The translations under genes were made by a program, and so were the position numbers. The notes under the pieces were generated by a model, which saw nothing but the letters and a program-made list of their open reading frames with translations, was not told the DNA's origin and did not search any database. From contig JACRHD010000059.1 in NCBI GenBank assembly GCA_016234115.1, positions 1 through 57,857 of the forward strand: a stretch of 57,857 nucleotides of DNA, in the 5' to 3' direction. Within the stretch, counting starts at the first letter, position 1, and the number at the start of each line of letters is the position of its first letter. This DNA is from Nitrospirota bacterium. Its GTDB lineage: Bacteria > Nitrospirota > Thermodesulfovibrionia > UBA6902. Of this stretch, positions 4,473 through 29,377 are shown piece by piece.

Positions 4473-4673
4473 ATGACGGACATAAAAAAATTCAACACCT
4501 TCGCGGCCCTCTCCGCTCTGCTTGTATTTTGCATCCTCTCCTATAATGTCCTGCAGGAGTATATATCAACAGAGCTTGGAGGTTATATCAAACGGCGCGT
4601 TTACTATGAGCAGGTGCTTTCAAAAAAAGGGCTCGGCCTGCATAAGGGCAAATACTGGAGAAAAGCGAATTAA
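4473..4673 (+). CDS. Small single-pass membrane protein preceding the AmmeMemoRadiSam genes
   Basis: A 66-residue protein (MTDIKK start) with one hydrophobic helix (about residues 10-28) and a basic tail ending HKGKYWRKAN. The ATG at 4473 is chosen because AAGAGGA lies seven to eight bases upstream; an earlier in-frame ATG at 4410 has no such site. It is 375 bases before the radical SAM gene, separated by repeats. Its tail resembles the end of the 39-residue peptide encoded at 6026 (EAKFWRRAK): both finish with lysine, an aromatic residue, Trp-Arg, a basic residue and Ala. A shared role with the AmmeMemoRadiSam enzymes is therefore suspected. No known domain is recognised, and the coding call itself is moderate. 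Confidence 0.55.
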   Translation: MTDIKKFNTFAALSALLVFCILSYNVLQEYISTELGGYIKRRVYYEQVLSKKGLGLHKGKYWRKAN

Positions 4674-4689
4674 TGCACTCATCTACAAA

Positions 4690-5016
4690 AGGAAGTCAGC
4701 CACGGATTTACGCGGATTGTCACAGATATTCGTGAAAAAGACAGAAGCTGAGAAGTTGAGGACTCCCGAAACACAATAACATTCTGCAAGTTCCATATTT
4801 TATCTGATTATCTGCGTTGATCCGTGGCCAAAATCCACCACCTAACCACAGAGGTCACAGAGAAAGTCATTGTTATTCAGGAAAAAATACCATAATAGCT
4901 GCTTTAACTCTGCACACACCCCGGCATTTATAAAAAAACTTGCTCTTCGCAATAAGCCCTTGATATCCGGGAGAAAAAACTCTGTGGCTTGTCTTTTGAT
5001 GGTGAATCAAGGGTGG
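4690..5016. repeat. Composite of inverted and CACAGAG-type dispersed repeats
   Basis: This gene-free stretch holds two repeat units. GCCACGGATTTACGCGGATT (about 4697-4717) pairs with the GCGTTGATCCGTGGCC segment (about 4813-4828). The segment 4838-5016 carries CTAACCACAGAGGTCACAGAG and, at 4980-5014, CTCTGTGGCTTGTCTTTTG plus GATGGTGAATC. The latter is nearly identical to the reverse complement of 11038-11072, on the far side of the AmmeMemoRadiSam locus. Confidence 0.7.
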
Positions 5017-5048: not shown

Positions 5049-6029
5049 ATGAGTACAAAGGTCCAGTGCGTACTCTGTCCCACGGAATGCGAGCTTGAAA
5101 ATTATCAGGTCGGCGGCTGCAGGGTGAGGATAAACAGGGATGGCGTCCTGTACAGTCTTGTATACGGGGCCCCGTGCAGCGTGGCCGTGGACCCTATAGA
5201 GAAGAAGCCTTTTTTTCACGTGCTCCCCGCTACGGGCGCGTTTTCCCTGGCTACTGCCGGATGCGTGCTCAACTGCAAATTCTGCCAGAACTGGCAGATA
5301 TCGCAGGCGAACCCTGAGGACGCGGACAACCTTGATATGCCTCCCGACGACGTTGTCAGAAAGGCCCTGTTTTACAATTGCAGGAGCATCGCCTACACTT
5401 ATACGGAGCCGGCGGTCTTTTACGAATACATGTACGACACGGCCGTGTCGGCGAAAAATCACGGTCTGTTGAACCTCATGCATACTTGCGGATATTTCAA
5501 TGAGAAGCCCTTAAGGGAGTTGTCGAAATACATGGACGCGGCATGTGTCGATCTCAAGGCCTTCACTGAGGACTTTTACGCCAGGGTCTGCGGCGGCAGG
5601 CTCAGGCCCGTCCTTGACGCGCTCGTGGTGCTTAAAGAAGAGGGTGTGTGGCTTGAGATAACGAACCTCGTTATACCTACGCTCAATGACGATATGAAGA
5701 GGGTCCGGGAGATGTGCCGGTGGATCATAAAGAATCTCGGCGCTGACGTGCCCATTCATTTTTCCCGTTTCTTCCCTGATTATAAACTCAAGGATCTTCC
5801 ACCCACGCCTCCTGAAACATTGGAGAACGCAAGGAGTGCGGCCATTGATGAAGGTTTAAGATATGTGTATATCGGCAATATAAGGAGCAGCTCCGAGGAC
5901 ACACGCTGTCCTTATTGCGGCAGTCTCCTTGTTGAGAGGATAGGGTATTTTGTAAAACAGAACAATATTTCCAAAGGAAAGTGCGCCTCCTGCGACAACG
6001 TGATCGCGGGAATATGGGGGGGGGAATGA
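5049..6029 (+). CDS. amrS: AmmeMemoRadiSam system radical SAM enzyme
   Basis: A 326-residue radical SAM protein with the cluster motif C72-x3-C76-x2-C79 (GCVLNCKFC). An N-terminal CVLCPTEC element and a C-terminal zinc-type pair (CPYCG and CASC) flank the barrel, which is the layout of the AmmeMemoRadiSam family (relatives of pyruvate-formate-lyase-activating enzyme). These enzymes occur beside MEMO1 and AMMECR1 proteins; the reaction is not known. The family usually has an EAxFYxKL segment before the first cysteines. Here that segment is missing, and the protein starts just before the cysteines. The next ORF overlaps its stop codon as ATGA, so coupled translation with the small 6026 peptide and the MEMO1-AMMECR1 fusion is expected. 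The gene symbol is a label for the family only. Confidence 0.92.
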   Translation: MSTKVQCVLCPTECELENYQVGGCRVRINRDGVLYSLVYGAPCSVAVDPIEKKPFFHVLPATGAFSLATAGCVLNCKFCQNWQISQANPEDADNLDMPPDDVVRKALFYNCRSIAYTYTEPAVFYEYMYDTAVSAKNHGLLNLMHTCGYFNEKPLRELSKYMDAACVDLKAFTEDFYARVCGGRLRPVLDALVVLKEEGVWLEITNLVIPTLNDDMKRVREMCRWIIKNLGADVPIHFSRFFPDYKLKDLPPTPPETLENARSAAIDEGLRYVYIGNIRSSSEDTRCPYCGSLLVERIGYFVKQNNISKGKCASCDNVIAGIWGGE

Positions 6030-6145
6030 CGAGGAGAATTTTTTTAAAATCCATTGTCCTTGGAAGCGTGGTCGGTTATTTTACCAAAAAGATACGGGCC
6101 GGAAACCGGGTGAAAGAGGCGAAGTTCTGGAGACGGGCGAAATGA
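6026..6145 (+). CDS. 39-residue peptide with RR-type signal, coupled to the AmmeMemoRadiSam genes
   Basis: ATG at 6026 overlaps the radical SAM stop codon as ATGA, and the TGA at 6143 overlaps the ATG of the MEMO1-AMMECR1 gene the same way. The peptide starts MTRRIFLKS, which fits the twin-arginine pattern (S/T-R-R-x-F-L-K), followed by a short hydrophobic stretch. It ends EAKFWRRAK. Two four-base overlaps on both sides make a translated gene very likely despite its size. The tail resembles that of the 66-residue protein at 4473, and also the EAxFW stretch that normally opens AmmeMemoRadiSam radical SAM proteins, which is absent from the enzyme here. A role as an export-linked partner or docking peptide is an inference. 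Confidence 0.7.
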   Translation: MTRRIFLKSIVLGSVVGYFTKKIRAGNRVKEAKFWRRAK

Positions 6146-7563
6146 CTTCAACGAAATTCCTGTGTCTTGTCATCGCCTTCCTGTTCATATCCTTCACCCC
6201 GGGATGCTCTGAAACCGTAAAGGAGCCTGCCGTTGCCGGGTCTTTCTATCCAGCAGACCCTAAGGAACTGTCCCGGACTGTCGGGGAGTTTCTCTCCAAT
6301 GCGGTGGACGGGACTGCCGATGGAAGACTTGTTGCTCTCATCTCCCCGCACGCGGGTTATATGTATTCCGGGGCCGTGGCGGCCCATTCTTACCGGCGCT
6401 TAAAGGGACGCGATATCAGGACCGTTATCCTTATCGGGCCCAGCCATCATAAGGCCTTCGAGGGCGCTTCCGTGTATGAGAGGGGGAAGATGAAGACCCC
6501 TCTGGGCATGATCGGGATTGACAGCAAGACGGCAAGGGCGCTTATCAATAAAGACGCCGATGTCACATTCTACCCTGAAGCATTTGAAAAAGAGCATTCA
6601 CTCGAGGTGCAGATACCGTTTATCCAGAGTGTCCTGAAGGACGCCAGGATAGTGCCGGTCCTTATAGGAAATCCGACGAAGAGGTCCTTTGATTTCCTGA
6701 CCGGAAAATTGATAGAGATAATGAGAAACGATGAAAAGACCCTGCTGATAGCGAGCACGGACCTCTCTCATTATCATGACTATGAGACCGCGGTGACGAA
6801 AGACAGGAAAGTCATAGACGCGGTGGAAAGGATGTCGGTTGAAGACCTGCAAAAATACCTCATGACAGGCGAAGGCGAGATGTGCGGCGGGTATCCTGTA
6901 TTGTTCGCGATGACCGTTGCGAGGGGGCTGGGCGCAACGAACGGTCTTCTTTATAAATATGCAAACTCCGGGGACGTGACCGGAGACGGGACGCGCGTGG
7001 TCGGCTACGCTGCCATGGGCCTTTACAAAAGCCCCCTTACCGGCGCGGAAAAGGACAGGCTGCTCGACCTTGCCAGAGAGACCATCAGGCTCTATGTCAG
7101 AGACGGAAAAATACCTGAAGTCAATATAAGCGACAAAAGGCTGATGACAAACGGCGCGACATTCGTAACCATAAAAGCAAACGGCATGCTGAGGGGCTGC
7201 ATCGGGAACATTTTTCCTGTTATGCCGCTTTATCAATCCGTAATCCATAATGCCGTCAGCGCGTCTTCAAGGGACCCGAGGTTCCCTCCCCTCGGCCCGG
7301 AAGAAATAAAGGACATCGACGTCGAGGTTACGGTCCTTTCCGCCCTCGAGCCGTGTAACGACAAGAATGAGGTTGAGGTCGGAAGGCACGGGCTTTACAT
7401 TGTAAAGGACGACCGCAGCGGCATACTCCTTCCGCAGGTCCCGGTGGAACAGGGGTGGGAGAGGGACACGTTTCTCAGGCAGGTCTCTATAAAGGCGGGG
7501 CTTCCCGGGGACGCGTGGAAAGAGGCGGACCTGTACCGCTTCACGGCGGAGATTGTTCATTAG
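6142..7563 (+). CDS. Lipoprotein fusion of MEMO1-like and AMMECR1-like domains (AmmeMemoRadiSam B and A)
   Basis: A 473-residue protein with three parts. A signal peptide ends in a lipobox-like FTPGC (Cys22). A MEMO1-like domain follows (about 28-290; AVAGSFYPAD, ISPHAGYMYSGAVAA, LIGPSHHKAFEG, STDLSHYHDY), related to class III extradiol dioxygenases. An AMMECR1 domain follows (about 305-472; LRGCIGNIFP, SSRDPRFPPL). In most genomes the two domains are separate genes beside the radical SAM enzyme, so the fusion itself confirms that they act together. The lipobox puts both domains outside the cytoplasm, on a membrane, whereas the radical SAM enzyme must be cytoplasmic; the RR-signal peptide encoded between them may matter here. 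The metal-binding histidines of the MEMO domain appear present. Substrate unknown. Confidence 0.92.
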   Translation: MTSTKFLCLVIAFLFISFTPGCSETVKEPAVAGSFYPADPKELSRTVGEFLSNAVDGTADGRLVALISPHAGYMYSGAVAAHSYRRLKGRDIRTVILIGPSHHKAFEGASVYERGKMKTPLGMIGIDSKTARALINKDADVTFYPEAFEKEHSLEVQIPFIQSVLKDARIVPVLIGNPTKRSFDFLTGKLIEIMRNDEKTLLIASTDLSHYHDYETAVTKDRKVIDAVERMSVEDLQKYLMTGEGEMCGGYPVLFAMTVARGLGATNGLLYKYANSGDVTGDGTRVVGYAAMGLYKSPLTGAEKDRLLDLARETIRLYVRDGKIPEVNISDKRLMTNGATFVTIKANGMLRGCIGNIFPVMPLYQSVIHNAVSASSRDPRFPPLGPEEIKDIDVEVTVLSALEPCNDKNEVEVGRHGLYIVKDDRSGILLPQVPVEQGWERDTFLRQVSIKAGLPGDAWKEADLYRFTAEIVH

Positions 7564-7569
7564 AAAAGC

Positions 7570-7659
7570 TATCAGCGCTCAGCTTTCAGCAATCAGCAAG
7601 AAAACAGACTTCCTTAGCTGACTGCCTTAGCTGACTGCTGAAAGCTGATTGCTGAACGG
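7570..7659. repeat. GCTGAAAGCTGATTGCTGA-family inverted repeat
   Basis: GCTCAGCTTTCAGCAATCAGC (shown as 7577-7597) is complementary to GCTGAAAGCTGATTGCTGA (7638-7656), with GACTGCCTTAGCTGACTGC between. A second copy lies at 33261-33343. It separates the MEMO1-AMMECR1 gene from the spermidine-synthase-like gene. Neither arm has the T run of a terminator. Confidence 0.8.
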
Positions 7660-7680
7660 CTCAGAAAATACAGCAGCCAT

Positions 7681-9771
7681 ATGATAAACCTTCCTGTTAT
7701 ACTGATGGGGACGAGCTCCATTGTCCTGCAGATAATCTGTCTGCGGCAGGTCCTCTCAACTTTTTCCGGCAACGAGCTTGTTATCGGGATAGCGCTTTCC
7801 GTATGGCTTGTATTTGTCGGCATCGGCAGCTTGATCGGCTCAAGGATAAAATTCAGCAATGCCTTCGGCTGGTCTTTCGTGATCATCGCCCTTACTGCAC
7901 AGGTCGCTGTCCTGCTCATCAAGGCCGTCAGGCCTGTCCTCTCCCTCGGGTTAGGGGAAGTGGTCCCGCTTCCCGCTACAATATTATGGACGGCCCTCAG
8001 CTTGGGACTGCTGTGTCTTTCAGTCGGCGTACAATTTCCCCTTGCCGTTTCTTACCTGAAAGATAAAGCGCCGGAGGTTTACAGCTTCGAGGCCGCCGGG
8101 GCATTTGCAGGCGGCGCTATTTTTACCTTCCTGCTGGCGGGCAATGCGGACGTGTACAAATTGGCCGCCCTTGCAGCCGTCATAAATATCCTTGTCGCCT
8201 CTTTTGTCCTCAAAAACAAAACCGTGCTTCTCTTTCTGCTGCTGCCGCTCCTCTTTTTCGCCGGAGGCAGCAATATCTTGTCGCCGCTTCACCACAAAGG
8301 GGTTGAAATTGTGCTGCAGGAGGAATCGAAATACGGCGAGATAACCGTACTCGGGATAAAGGACCAGTTCAATGTCTATTCGTCCGAAAAATTGCAGTTT
8401 TCCTATCCCGATCCGCAGGGGGAAGAAATGCGCGCACATGTCCCGATGGCCCTCCATCCGGGCGCGCGCCGGGTGCTTGTCATAGGCGGCTCTCCTGCCG
8501 TCATAAGGGAGTTCCTGAAATACCAGGTGTCCCGCCTCGATTTTGTCGAGATCGATCCGGTGCTGATAGAGTTTTCAAAAAGGATCCTGAACGCGGACGA
8601 CCTGCGGTCCCTCGAAAATAAAAGGGTCCGGGTGCTTCACACTGATGCGCGGCGGCACATAAAAGCTCTGCCTCATGACGTATATGACCTTATAGTCCTC
8701 AACCTGCCGGAGCCCTCCACCGCAAGCATAAACAGGCTCTATACCGTCGAGTTCTTCAGCGAAGCAAAAGCAGCGCTTAACGATGAAGGGGTCCTATACC
8801 TGGGCCTGCCGGTTTCATACGGATATATAGGCCGGAGGATGCAAACGGCAAACGGATCGGTTTACAAAGCGATGGAGAATATTTTTCCTCACGTCGCGGT
8901 ATCATCCGAAGAATACGGGATCATCGCGGCGTCTGAAAAGGGCATCAACATAAAGGCGGATGAACTGTCGGGGCGTTTTTCGGCGTCCGGAGTTCATACC
9001 GCCCACTTCCGGCCTTATTCGTTCAGTGATATCTTTTCACCGATAAAGGTGGAAATGGTCAGACAAAGGCTGGGGACCACTCATAACGTCAACAGCGACC
9101 GGCAGCCGCTGTCATATATTTACAACCTGATGCAATGGTCGGATATCCACGGCGGCAAGTGGCTGAACGCCGTCCTGGACCTTGAAGCGCGCGCCATATT
9201 TATTTTCCTCGCAGCGGCGCTTATCGCAATGACCGTTCTCTTTATAAAGAACTCCGGGGCGGTCTCGTATGCGGTATTCACGACCGGCTTCAGTACAATG
9301 TCGTTGTCGGTCATTATAATCCTTGCGTACCAGTCCGCTTTCGGTTATGTATATGAAATGATCGGCATGCTCACCGGCACATTCATGTTAGGCGGGGCGG
9401 CAGGCTCTTATATCATGAGAAATACGATAAACCGTCTGAAATGGCTCCGGGGGTTTGACGTTCTTGTCGTTGTACTCATGACGGCCTCTGCCGTCCTGAT
9501 GAAAAACGAGGTAATGTTTTATGTAATAATATTTATCTCGGGATTATCAGGCGGCGGACAGTTTGCGGCCGCGAGCCTGTTATTCACGGAAAACAAGACA
9601 GGGGGACAGGCAGGGACTCTTTATGCAACGGACCTCGCCGGCTCATTCCTGGGGTCTTTTCTGACGGCGATTTTCATGGCGCCCTTGCTGGGCATTCTGA
9701 ATACGCTCATGTTTCTGGCAGCAGTAAAAATGCTTTCACTTGTTTTGATGCTCAACAAAAGATTTATTTAA
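7681..9771 (+). CDS. Membrane protein with spermidine-synthase-like domain
   Basis: A 696-residue protein: about six membrane helices (1-200), a cytosolic spermidine-synthase/methyltransferase fold (about 205-480) and a second membrane block (about 500-696). The nucleotide-pocket motif is VLVIGGSP (265-272), the ribose-binding acid is FVEID (288-292) and a DAR block follows at 322-324. The catalytic region that reads DSSDP in true spermidine synthases is NLPEP here (341-345). The acid base that deprotonates putrescine is therefore replaced, and aminopropyl transfer to putrescine is doubtful. Proteins of this architecture are widespread and unassigned. The FMN-binding polyferredoxin starts six bases after its stop, so the two are co-transcribed. 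Confidence 0.85.
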   Translation: MINLPVILMGTSSIVLQIICLRQVLSTFSGNELVIGIALSVWLVFVGIGSLIGSRIKFSNAFGWSFVIIALTAQVAVLLIKAVRPVLSLGLGEVVPLPATILWTALSLGLLCLSVGVQFPLAVSYLKDKAPEVYSFEAAGAFAGGAIFTFLLAGNADVYKLAALAAVINILVASFVLKNKTVLLFLLLPLLFFAGGSNILSPLHHKGVEIVLQEESKYGEITVLGIKDQFNVYSSEKLQFSYPDPQGEEMRAHVPMALHPGARRVLVIGGSPAVIREFLKYQVSRLDFVEIDPVLIEFSKRILNADDLRSLENKRVRVLHTDARRHIKALPHDVYDLIVLNLPEPSTASINRLYTVEFFSEAKAALNDEGVLYLGLPVSYGYIGRRMQTANGSVYKAMENIFPHVAVSSEEYGIIAASEKGINIKADELSGRFSASGVHTAHFRPYSFSDIFSPIKVEMVRQRLGTTHNVNSDRQPLSYIYNLMQWSDIHGGKWLNAVLDLEARAIFIFLAAALIAMTVLFIKNSGAVSYAVFTTGFSTMSLSVIIILAYQSAFGYVYEMIGMLTGTFMLGGAAGSYIMRNTINRLKWLRGFDVLVVVLMTASAVLMKNEVMFYVIIFISGLSGGGQFAAASLLFTENKTGGQAGTLYATDLAGSFLGSFLTAIFMAPLLGILNTLMFLAAVKMLSLVLMLNKRFI

Positions 9772-9777
9772 ACTCTT

Positions 9778-10983
9778 ATGAAAAAAATCAGAACGGCTTT
9801 TCTCATAATCGCGGCGCTCTCCCTTATCGCCGGGCGTATCTTCATGCCCGAAGAAAAAATCGATGAAAAAAGACACCTCAGCGAAATAGCTCCCGGCTCA
9901 AGCTTCTCGGACAAAAAAGGCGATCCCCCGCGCTATCAGGCGGACAGCGGGTCCATTGCATTCAATACCTATGACCTGGTCCCTCATATCAGGGGATACG
10001 CCGGACCGATCCGGCTCCTGCTGGCACTGGATTACAAAGGGAAGATAACCGGAATCAGGATACTTTCTCACAGGGAAACCAAAAACTATGTGCACTATGT
10101 GGAAGGTCCTCAATACCTTAAACAGTTTATAGGCAAGGGGGTAAATGATCCGTTCAGAGCGGGGGAGGACATCGAGGCCGTCAGCAGGGCGACTGTGAGT
10201 GTTGAGGCGCTTGCGGAAACGGTGCGGGAGTCAACGAGAAAGGCCGCGTCTGAGGTCTACGGTCTTCGCGTTGAAGGCGCGGAGGGGGCGAAGCGCGCCG
10301 ACACAGGATGGGTAGTGTATCTGTCGCTCTTTATTCCGGCCTATGCCTTATATTCCGTCACGCGCAGACCAAAGAGGCTTTTGCGGTCGAGGGACATCAG
10401 CCTCGTCCTCGGCATCGTTATTATAGGCGTTTACCTCGCGACCCCCTTTTCAATCCTTCATGTCTTCAATACGACTCTTTTAAGATTGTCTTCCTCCCTT
10501 CTGCTGTACGTAATAGCGATAAGCACGATGCTGTCCATAATGTTCGGCGGCAGGTTTTACTGCGGCTGGCTCTGCCCGTTCGGCGCGCTCGCGGAATTCA
10601 TCGGAAGGCTGCCTTTTAGAAAGTGGGACATCCCTGTGGAAACGGACGACAGATGGAGAAGGCTCAAATACTTTCTTCTCATTCTTATTACAGCCGTGGC
10701 CCTGGCCGGAGCGCCTGTGGAATACGTAAACTATGAAACGTATGTAACGCTCTTTTCTTTTCACGGCAACACCCTCACGTGGCTGCTTGTAATATTGATG
10801 CTCGTGATAAATATCCGGGTGGAGAGGTTCTGGTGCAGGTATTTGTGTCCTGTCGGGGCCCTCGCCGGCCTGTTTTCGAGGAAAGACGGCGGATATACCG
10901 GCAGGAAGGACTGCCCCATGTCCAACAAGCCCTCGCCTCATATATCGGAATGCGTCAGATGCAACAGATGTTATAAATTATAA
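9778..10983 (+). CDS. NosR-like FMN-binding, 4Fe-4S membrane protein
   Basis: A 401-residue protein. After an N-terminal helix comes an FMN-binding domain (about 60-165) with AVSRATVS at 134-141; Thr139 fits the position that ApbE flavinylates in RnfG, NqrC and NosR (usual motif SGAT). About five membrane helices follow, with two CxxxCP elements (CGWLCPFGAL 262-271 and CRYLCPVGAL 353-362), then a terminal cluster from C379 to C392/C395/C398. This is the NosR/NapH-type design for carrying electrons between a quinol or ferredoxin pool and a periplasmic flavin. The protein ends right after the last cysteines, so a second ferredoxin cluster found in longer relatives is missing. Its place beside the AmmeMemoRadiSam and spermidine-synthase-like genes suggests it supplies electrons to that pathway (inference). 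Confidence 0.82.
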   Translation: MKKIRTAFLIIAALSLIAGRIFMPEEKIDEKRHLSEIAPGSSFSDKKGDPPRYQADSGSIAFNTYDLVPHIRGYAGPIRLLLALDYKGKITGIRILSHRETKNYVHYVEGPQYLKQFIGKGVNDPFRAGEDIEAVSRATVSVEALAETVRESTRKAASEVYGLRVEGAEGAKRADTGWVVYLSLFIPAYALYSVTRRPKRLLRSRDISLVLGIVIIGVYLATPFSILHVFNTTLLRLSSSLLLYVIAISTMLSIMFGGRFYCGWLCPFGALAEFIGRLPFRKWDIPVETDDRWRRLKYFLLILITAVALAGAPVEYVNYETYVTLFSFHGNTLTWLLVILMLVINIRVERFWCRYLCPVGALAGLFSRKDGGYTGRKDCPMSNKPSPHISECVRCNRCYKL

Positions 10984-11037: not shown

Positions 11038-11217
11038 AACCCTGATTCACCATCAAGAGACAAACCACAGAGACCACAGAGGAAAAAAATAAATATTAAT
11101 CCACAGATTACACTGATTAACACAGATGTATTTAGAAATAATTTTTCAATCTGTGAAATCTGTATAATCTGCGGATAAATAAATCTTTTCTCTGTGCCCT
11201 CTGTGGTTAGGTGGGTG
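11038..11217. repeat. Nested inverted repeat of the CACAGAG / CAGATTACAC family
   Basis: ACCACAGAGACCACAGAGG pairs with the CTCTGTGCCCTCTGTGGT segment at about 11191-11209. Inside that, ATCCACAGATTACACTGAT pairs with ATCTGTATAATCTGCGGAT. Positions 11038-11072 are the reverse complement of 4980-5014, with two substitutions and one gap. No gene lies between 10984 and 11273. Confidence 0.8.
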
Positions 11218-27220: not shown

Positions 27221-29377
27221 TCAATCTGTCCCGGCATTTTCCCTCTTCAGGTGCTCAATCAGGGACTTACTTTCATCCACCATGTTAAGCGCAAGCCTGT
27301 ATCCAAGCTCGCGGTAGGCCTCAAACTGGGTCTCGTCAAAAAACTGGTCCGTAGTTGATTGGTCAGGGAAGGTCTTGTTGGCGCTCTTGAAGCTGTAGAT
27401 ATCAACCGGAAGCCCCGGGGTCAGCACTGTGTTTATATAATAGATTTTTCCCTCCGTCCCGTCAGGATACTCGACGGAGCCGACGGCATAGCCCCTTGCG
27501 GACAGGTTCAGTTTTTCATTAAAGGCGTCCCCGCCGGCCGTTCCGGGCAGCAGCTTATGGAGGTCTTCCTCAAAGCGTATATCAGTCCCGAAGTCCACCC
27601 TTGCACGCCCTATCATATTACCGAGGTCGGCAAAGGTGCAGTTAAGGTCGGCGCTGCCGTCCACCATGATAATGACCTTTACCTTTCTTCTTATCAGCTC
27701 ATACAGGCCCGTATTGTCAAAGTGTCCGCCGTCCGACAACTCAATAAACCGGCCATCCTCCTTAAAACCTGTCCCGAGCAGCCCGTTGAGTCCGGGACAA
27801 AAATAATTCGGCGTGCGCGTCTTTTTCGACTTCGCGGGATTTGAGGCCCAGTAACCGAGCCTGAGGTTCATCATGGTCATAAGGAATGAAAGAAGCCTGT
27901 TGCGTGTCGGTCCGGCCCCCGCAACTCCAGTATGAGGATTGACGGCGGCCCCGGACACAGCCATGGCTGATGCAATGGTCATCTCGCCTTTGGAAAATTC
28001 TGCCGTGCTGAACCATCCGGTCGCGTCGCTGCCGCAAAAAAGCGAAGACAGAATAAAATTGTCCCCTCCCCTTCCGCGGAACTTCGCGTTCAAGGAATCT
28101 ATCAACACGATATTTGTATTGATAATATGGTAAGGCCCCGCGGAGCCTGGCCCGCACATGTCCTTCAGTTTCCCTGCATTGGCCCCGGTGGCAGGCCCCC
28201 ATTGCCCGCTCCTGACATTAGCGATGTCAGGCAAAAACGTCTCCATCAGCCGGTCGCGGTACACGCGGTGCAGTGAAACGTAATTCAGATTTACGAGAAG
28301 GCCGGTCGTCAGAGAAAGAATGACGGTTGAGACGGGCCATAACCAGCATTCAGCGGCATCCGCAAAAACATATGCAAGAAGCAGCAGGCCGTATATGAGC
28401 AGAAAAGACGCGCCCCAGACGAGGAGCTTGCCTAAAACGCCTTCGCCTTTTTCCTTCTGTTTCTGATCGATAATGAACTTGACGACCGCGCCAAGGGCTC
28501 CGAGCGCGGTGGAGCCGCCGGCCGCCCATGCAGCGATTTTGGCTTTTACCAATGGAAGCCCCCCGATGAGAAGAAGGCCTACGCAGAAGGCGAGGATGAC
28601 CCCCGCAAGGCATTGAAAGGCCATCCTCAACATGTAGGGCTTGTCAAAAATGCCGGTGGCCCTCTCCTTGTCCTTGCCCAAACATTTGTACAAACGGGTC
28701 ATCACTGAATAACCAAGGCTGAAGACCACGAAAATGGCGAACAACAGCACAGCGCACAGGACCGGTAAATTCATCGCGCTCATCCATGCAAGCCATTCGG
28801 CCCCCGCCGGCGCGGACACATTCTCAAACGCCTTGCCCTTGACAAGCGCGAAAATGACCGCGAAAATGAGCGGGAAATATACCATCAGGCCCAATATTAT
28901 GCTGCGTAGTATTACCGCGATCAGCGAGAAAGCGTTGAGGCACTTTCCGGGGTCCATGTAATTGCCGTGCTGACGGATAAAATCAAGCACGCTGTTTATG
29001 ATGCCGTCTGTCCTCGCGCCGACCCTGCTCTGGCCGAACGGGAAGTTATCCTTATCGACCCCATAGCGGACAGGGGCCCCGTTGTGTTCCCATTTGTCGT
29101 GCAGAAACCAGGTGAGAGACGAGCCGGTGTAGCCGCCGCCCGAGACCGTCGACAGGTAGTCGATCCATTTGAGGACATCTCTCTTGACCAGGGCCTGCAA
29201 GACACCGAGGCTGAAGGCAGCGGAGCGTATGCCGCCGCCGGAGATCGCAATGCCCGCGAGATTATCCGCGGAGACTTTTTCTGTAATACCCCGGTTTTTG
29301 CGCAGCGCGGCAATGCGGGCCAGCTCCTCATTCAGAACGGCCTGGTACGCGAACTTCTTGCAGCATCCGTCACTCAT
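27221..29377 (-). CDS. Membrane-inserted patatin-like phospholipase
   Basis: A 718-residue protein. It begins with a patatin domain: AISGGGIRSAAFSLGVLQAL (oxyanion-hole glycines 47-49) and YLSTVSGGGYTGSSL, where Ser79 would be the nucleophile. The usual GxSxG reads TVSGG here, a known variant. After this come about six membrane helices (140-370) that split the hydrolase fold. The domain then resumes and carries LSDGGHFDNTGLYEL, with Asp549 as second member of the Ser-Asp dyad. Such proteins hydrolyse acyl chains of membrane lipids; substrate and role are unknown. GGAGGAAGAA precedes the ATG. No signal peptide, so the catalytic part is probably cytoplasmic. Its upstream neighbour is an unknown membrane-anchored protein. 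Confidence 0.85.
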   Translation of the reverse strand: MSDGCCKKFAYQAVLNEELARIAALRKNRGITEKVSADNLAGIAISGGGIRSAAFSLGVLQALVKRDVLKWIDYLSTVSGGGYTGSSLTWFLHDKWEHNGAPVRYGVDKDNFPFGQSRVGARTDGIINSVLDFIRQHGNYMDPGKCLNAFSLIAVILRSIILGLMVYFPLIFAVIFALVKGKAFENVSAPAGAEWLAWMSAMNLPVLCAVLLFAIFVVFSLGYSVMTRLYKCLGKDKERATGIFDKPYMLRMAFQCLAGVILAFCVGLLLIGGLPLVKAKIAAWAAGGSTALGALGAVVKFIIDQKQKEKGEGVLGKLLVWGASFLLIYGLLLLAYVFADAAECWLWPVSTVILSLTTGLLVNLNYVSLHRVYRDRLMETFLPDIANVRSGQWGPATGANAGKLKDMCGPGSAGPYHIINTNIVLIDSLNAKFRGRGGDNFILSSLFCGSDATGWFSTAEFSKGEMTIASAMAVSGAAVNPHTGVAGAGPTRNRLLSFLMTMMNLRLGYWASNPAKSKKTRTPNYFCPGLNGLLGTGFKEDGRFIELSDGGHFDNTGLYELIRRKVKVIIMVDGSADLNCTFADLGNMIGRARVDFGTDIRFEEDLHKLLPGTAGGDAFNEKLNLSARGYAVGSVEYPDGTEGKIYYINTVLTPGLPVDIYSFKSANKTFPDQSTTDQFFDETQFEAYRELGYRLALNMVDESKSLIEHLKRENAGTD

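Follow-up and report, generated by a model that had tools for sequence, protein, structure and literature searches.

Six neighbouring genes of a Nitrospirota bacterium appear to form an AmmeMemoRadiSam radical-SAM system that acts outside the cytoplasmic membrane. AmmeMemoRadiSam (TIGR04335, TIGR04336 and TIGR04337) is a widespread system of unknown function, parts of which have the human relatives MEMO1 and AMMECR1. Radical-SAM enzymes are usually thought to be cytoplasmic. The genes lie on the forward strand of the window, by which we mean the entire stretch of 57,857 nucleotides that was analysed (contig C44 of the 3.5-Mb genome G000).

The first gene encodes pep2, a 66-residue peptide with a single transmembrane (TM) segment (positions 4473-4673). 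It is followed by genes for the AmmeMemoRadiSam radical-SAM enzyme, here called rSAM (5049-6029), RRpep, a 39-residue Tat-type signal peptide (6026-6145; MTRRIFLKSIVLGSVVGYFTKKIRAGNRVKEAKFWRRAK), a fusion of MEMO and AMMECR1 that is predicted to be a lipoprotein (6142-7563), MFS-SpdS, a 14-TM carrier of MFS type with a spermidine-synthase-like domain (7681-9771), and a membrane protein with FMN_bind and Fer4_5 domains, predicted to be a transmembrane electron donor and referred to below as the FMN/Fe-S protein (9778-10983). A first-pass annotation had listed all of these genes except pep2, and each of them was confirmed where it had been placed. The rSAM scores 369 bits with TIGR04337 (cut-off 220) and the fusion scores 281 bits with TIGR04336 (cut-off 26) and 173 bits with TIGR04335 (cut-off 99), so the assignment to AmmeMemoRadiSam is confirmed. 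The reported ATGA overlaps that join rSAM, RRpep and the fusion are real (6026-6029 and 6142-6145).

The rSAM carries the CxxxCxxC cluster motif as CVLNCKFC (PF04055, 61 bits; cut-off 29.5), and its first residues are VQCVLCPTEC; the N-terminal EAxFY/W segment is missing. Almost every other family member that we sampled has this segment just before the first Cys motif, and it is the same segment that forms the C-terminus of RRpep (KEAKFWRRAK in the window, KEAxFW[RK]xx in general). The genome also encodes elsewhere a second MEMO and a second, signal-less rSAM copy (L002), which has the motif in cis (MKEAMAYEKLKGTDVKCHLC). The EAxxY/W motif was not found in cis in the window rSAM or in any other rSAM of this split type; enzymes of the split clade start with V-x-C-x-LCP. 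We considered whether an upstream in-frame start could restore the motif and rejected this, as no motif is present there and a stop codon lies at most 15 codons upstream in many copies. It is important to note that the N-terminal motif is an observation of this analysis and not part of the curated family definition, and that real variants exist (EADYSE, EGFIYK and EVMYY), so family-wide counts of it are inexact.

AlphaFold was used to model L099, a TM-anchored relative (pLDDT 94 for the whole model); here the motif is folded onto the core of the enzyme with a pLDDT of 97-98. Because it is confidently folded there, the motif seems to be part of the enzyme fold, in which case the split form would have to obtain it in trans. 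The closest solved fold to this model is pyruvate formate-lyase activating enzyme (3cb8; Z 24 over 225 residues). The rSAM differs from that enzyme in having an extra N-terminal Cys motif and C-terminal CPxC/CxxC motifs, and a glycyl radical enzyme was not identified in the locus. In a tree of 117 enzymes, the split type of Nitrospirota forms one clade (100/100), while that of Omnitrophota (L115 and L116) is placed elsewhere, adjoining Tat-fused members (99/90). Well-supported branches thus force at least two changes on this tree, i.e., the split is read as having arisen at least twice. The clade's phylum includes Ca. Magnetocorallium, a metagenome-assembled genome from the same class as the window, whose enzyme is identical to that of genome G154. 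A Planctomycetota rSAM (L117:7983-8969) also has no N-terminal motif in cis; its partner peptide was not found in the short contig.

RRpep is present in all 28 Nitrospirota genomes that have both the MEMO-AMMECR1 fusion and a split rSAM, directly before MEMO even when the rSAM gene is on another contig. All 28 copies share the twin arginine and A-x-FW-[RKQ] without exception, and three close pairs give dN/dS values of 0.06-0.25, which indicate purifying selection. Given the invariant residues and the low dN/dS, we regard RRpep as a real, selected protein. The N-terminus, TRRIFLK, fits a Tat signal, with a motif of RRxF[L/K] type followed by a moderately hydrophobic stretch, and TatC is encoded in the genome. 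The C-terminus equals the N-terminus of relatives in which a Tat signal is fused to the enzyme. One might instead take RRpep to be a RiPP-like substrate peptide of rSAM and not a targeting subunit: a short peptide gene beside a radical-SAM gene is the usual RiPP layout, and the peptide would be exported by its own signal. However, the conserved part of RRpep is the enzyme family's own N-terminal motif, which occurs in cis across many phyla, and L066, like many other relatives, has the Tat part in one chain with the enzyme. We therefore set the precursor hypothesis aside as very improbable, and continue with RRpep as a putative targeting subunit. The export by Tat of a signal-less partner as a hitchhiker is an established mechanism (PMC10924467). 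The arrangement proposed here shares with it a signal that is carried by one partner and used by another, but RRpep, with its 39 residues, is little more than a signal and the missing enzyme piece.

The member of the module missed at first, pep2 (MTDIKKF...GLGLHKGKYWRKAN), is predicted to be a tether with its C-terminus outside and a docking motif of the form A/G-x-[YF]-W. The C-terminus, GLSLHKAMYW, matches the corresponding segments of two TM-anchored enzymes (DLSLKEAMFY in L099 and GLSMHIAEYW in L130). RRpep and pep2 carry the same motif; that they divide the labour between them is a guess. Within the phylum, pep2 is found in 20 of the 20 genomes with the FMN/Fe-S protein versus 0 of 13 tested genomes without it, and in several genomes it adjoins the FMN/Fe-S gene with the rSAM gene elsewhere. 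In family f15, MFS-SpdS and RRpep are present, and the FMN/Fe-S protein and pep2 are both absent. Further afield, the gene order is pep2, rSAM, RRpep and MEMO-AMMECR1 lipoprotein in L115 (Omnitrophota), and pep2, rSAM and RRpep in L123. In L116, the FMN/Fe-S protein continues at its C-terminus into a TM segment and the pep2 motif, while in L130 a TM segment with the motif precedes rSAM in the same chain, and the rSAM gene is just downstream of an FMN/Fe-S gene. These two fusions link the FMN/Fe-S protein, pep2 and rSAM. In addition, the TM segment that precedes the motif in L116 comes after a K-rich stretch behind the Fe-S pairs, from which the motif should be outside.

We surveyed 296 genomes of the phylum and fetched and compared their loci. 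A close MEMO-AMMECR1 fusion occurs in 31 of them, including two in which it is split into pieces, and 28 of these 31 have an rSAM of the window's type (59-75% identity to the window enzyme, with the window included in the count). The usual gene order is MFS-SpdS, FMN/Fe-S, pep2, rSAM, RRpep and MEMO-AMMECR1; in the window, MFS-SpdS and FMN/Fe-S come after the other module genes. Close homologues of MFS-SpdS (E < 1e-110) are present in 29 of the 296 genomes and the FMN/Fe-S protein in 20, and every one of these genomes has a split rSAM (29/29 and 20/20), even where the genes are unlinked. The first-pass annotation had suggested counting how often the two downstream genes accompany the system, and the outcome of this count is thus positive. 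Fisher tests against the 31 fusion genomes give p of about 1e-31 for MFS-SpdS and about 1e-20 for the FMN/Fe-S protein, values that overstate independence because the genomes are related. Two genomes (G101 and G284) at first sight have MFS-SpdS without the MEMO fusion; a split rSAM is present in both, and the genes are at contig ends. G284 also has a second, distant MFS-SpdS beside a second rSAM (G284:C64:1010-4191; 47% identity, open frame of 384 residues), and so a single cell may contain two systems of the exported type.

Export of the MEMO-AMMECR1 fusion, which had been predicted earlier, is very probable: a Cys after A, G or S ends a signal-like stretch in 29 of 31 orthologues. In the window this residue is Cys22, as previously assigned, although the lipobox, FTPGC, is a weak one that deviates at position -3 from [LVI][ASTVI][GAS]C. 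The AMMECR1 part contains the LRGCIG loop, which is a hallmark of its family. Given this loop and the resemblance of the rSAM relative's fold to pyruvate formate-lyase activating enzyme, it is possible that the substrate is a protein, with the loop as a candidate target of the activase-like rSAM.

MFS-SpdS was modelled with AlphaFold (pLDDT 90.6, pTM 0.90). In the model, seven TM helices are followed by a spermidine-synthase domain, inserted between TM7 and TM8, and then by another helical bundle, which we read as seven TM helices by counting the long helix at residues 503-554 as two. The domain matches the fold of spermidine synthases with Z up to 29 (1uir), and the TM part matches several MFS carriers with Z of 24-27, in alignments of about 320-335 residues that span residues 1-696. 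Among sequence models, NF037959, the fused MFS-spermidine synthase, is over its cut-off (43.0 bits; cut-off 40) and Pfam MFS_1 is below it (16.6 bits; cut-off 33.4). Charges mapped over 30 homologues give 18.9 K+R on the N-terminal side versus 3.1 on the domain side, with the same bias in 30 of 30 rows, and under the positive-inside rule the domain is predicted to be extracytoplasmic. Like spermidine synthases and NF037959, MFS-SpdS retains the ligands of ribose (Glu in 28 of 30 homologues) and adenine (Asp in 29 of 30) together with the fold and the MFS-type TM part. It differs from them in the predicted location of the domain outside the membrane and in its acceptor residues: the acidic residues of the aminopropyltransferase acceptor site are mostly lost among the homologues, and the window has GGSPA at the GGGDGG site, where the Asp is lost, and NLPEP in place of DSxDP. 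The best reading is that the domain binds an adenosyl compound and probably does not transfer aminopropyl groups.

The FMN/Fe-S protein is over the cut-off for both of its Pfam domains (PF04205, 46 bits; PF12801, 60 bits), and its layout is an N-terminal TM segment, FMN_bind, further TM segments and CxxxCP pairs. It shares with proteins of the NosR, NapH and RnfG type the combination of an FMN_bind domain outside with CxxxCP Fe-S pairs in one membrane protein. It is, however, far below their curated cut-offs (NosR 91 bits with a cut-off of 1000, NapH 49 with 234, napH_ 59 with 213, RnfG 32 with 102), and its partner here is a radical-SAM enzyme. The flavin motif is S-R-A-T in the window and S-R/K-A-T in seven relatives, with the Gly of [ST]GA[ST] replaced, and an ApbE gene is present in the genome. 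A covalent flavin is plausible, but not certain.

It might be supposed that MFS-SpdS and the FMN/Fe-S protein are functionally unlinked neighbours of the system, e.g., a polyamine or respiratory pair, given that NCBIfam places MFS-SpdS near polyamine aminopropyltransferases and that the two genes are dispersed in some genomes. The changes at the acceptor site speak against a role in polyamine synthesis, and the linkage of MFS-SpdS to the system holds in many phyla. Above all, the co-occurrence with split rSAM persists when the genes are unlinked, so we set aside the idea that they are mere neighbours and judge it to be quite improbable.

To collect relatives from other phyla, we scanned 84,980 species genomes once, using an alignment headed by L066, a Tat-fused relative from the same class, and obtained 80 loci. 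Signals were judged by hydropathy and by reading motifs. On this basis, a Tat, Sec or TM segment is fused ahead of the motif in 57 of the enzymes; of the others, 3 are split and 20 have no such segment. A MEMO with a signal accompanies the signal-bearing or split enzymes at 29 of 29 readable loci, versus 2 of 7 for signal-less enzymes, and the locus includes MFS-SpdS in 34 of 60 cases versus 0 of 20. The sample favours enzymes close to the query, and many of its contigs are short, so these numbers should be read as a contrast and not as proportions. Some observations count against an exported system. In two Bacteroidales loci (L109 and L113) a signal is on MEMO with none seen on rSAM, and three Nitrospirota genomes (G162, G124 and G186; loci L038, L061 and L062) have the exported MEMO-AMMECR1 lipoprotein, but RRpep, split rSAM, MFS-SpdS and the FMN/Fe-S protein are all absent; these three may be decaying systems, or the lipoprotein may have an independent role. 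Five Omnitrophota enzymes (L087, L102, L106, L110 and L112) have Sec-type signal peptides, in L112 with a lipobox-like LVTC, and would require Fe-S assembly outside the cytoplasm. Separately, in two Tat-fused enzymes (L101 and L139) an extra Cys/His segment divides the CxLCP motif from the EAxYY or ARFW motif before it.

The first-pass annotation had combined the exported fusion and its accompanying genes with a cytoplasmic radical-SAM enzyme whose product is exported. The former part stands, but the latter is not borne out in that form, as the evidence argues strongly that the enzyme itself is outside. In its relatives, Tat, Sec or TM signals are fused to the enzyme, RRpep resembles that N-terminus made in trans, and the spermidine-synthase domain of a partner faces outward in the prediction. 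The main argument for this location is that each partner exposes some part of itself on the outer side and that the relatives arrive there by way of various signal types. The opposing hypothesis is that rSAM is cytoplasmic, with RRpep and pep2 as anchors on the inner face, and acts on MEMO-AMMECR1 or a small molecule before export. In favour of an enzyme on the inner face, both SAM and reducing power are found in the cytoplasm, SAM is not known to occur outside it, and the split rSAM itself lacks a signal. However, a plain anchor needs no twin arginine, whereas RRpep has kept it with RRxF in all 28 copies; the enzymes of relatives are fused to signals of Sec, lipoprotein-like and Tat kinds; the motif in L116 and the domain of MFS-SpdS are expected to be outside; and a lipoprotein exported by Sec would be unfolded before export. 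We therefore consider a cytoplasmic location unlikely.

In our judgement, the gene set, the split motif, the signal-like N-termini and the conservation of the module, as read from sequence, are probably best explained by an extracytoplasmic AmmeMemoRadiSam system with a signal supplied in trans, a tether, an electron donor and a carrier that handles SAM. For this extracytoplasmic system, the following scheme can be proposed. The rSAM would fold in the cytoplasm with its Fe-S clusters and without its N-terminal EAxFW segment. RRpep would then dock on it and supply the segment in trans, and its Tat signal would export the enzyme as a hitchhiker. Outside, the same motif on pep2 may hold rSAM beside the FMN/Fe-S protein, which would pass electrons across the membrane. 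MFS-SpdS, with its outward adenosyl-binding domain, may supply SAM to the outer face or clear its products from there, and the exported MEMO-AMMECR1 lipoprotein would be the partner or substrate of rSAM. The most specific version, i.e., a complete radical-SAM pathway outside in which a trans-assembled, Tat-exported rSAM receives SAM through the MFS carrier and electrons through flavin and Fe-S to modify MEMO-AMMECR1, and in which RRpep is a trans-acting Tat signal that completes the enzyme fold, is tentative, and we put its chances slightly below even.

The module resembles known AmmeMemoRadiSam systems in that all three proteins are over curated cut-offs. It differs from them in its predicted location outside the membrane, in the fusion of MEMO and AMMECR1 in a predicted lipoprotein, in an rSAM N-terminus that is made in trans, in three added membrane proteins, and in having a separate signal-less copy in the genome. 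In the open-licence PMC literature, we found no earlier description of AmmeMemoRadiSam function, of a periplasmic radical-SAM enzyme or of one with a Tat signal, and radical SAM, AMMECR1 and spermidine synthase all go unmentioned in two surveys of extracytosolic flavin proteins. The exported branch of AmmeMemoRadiSam thereby gains a compartment, a set of partners and testable interfaces. If the proposal is true, radical-SAM chemistry takes place outside the cytoplasm, a carrier handles SAM or its products there, and the targeting segment of an enzyme became separate genes at least two times.

Some further features of the window touch on its altered gene order. The repeat CACAGAGRNCACAGAG occurs at 4847-4862, 11066-11081 and 11190-11205, where its copies flank the six-gene module, and has no other copy in the window (0.01 expected); it may mark an insertion or rearrangement behind this order. 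An imperfect inverted repeat with arms of 26 nucleotides (88%; 7572-7655, of the GCTGATTGCTGAA type) lies between the genes for the fusion and MFS-SpdS, which is where the gene order departs from that of relatives. Elsewhere in the window, positions 27221-29377 encode a 718-residue membrane protein whose start is like a patatin-type lipase (GISGGGIRSAAFSLG).
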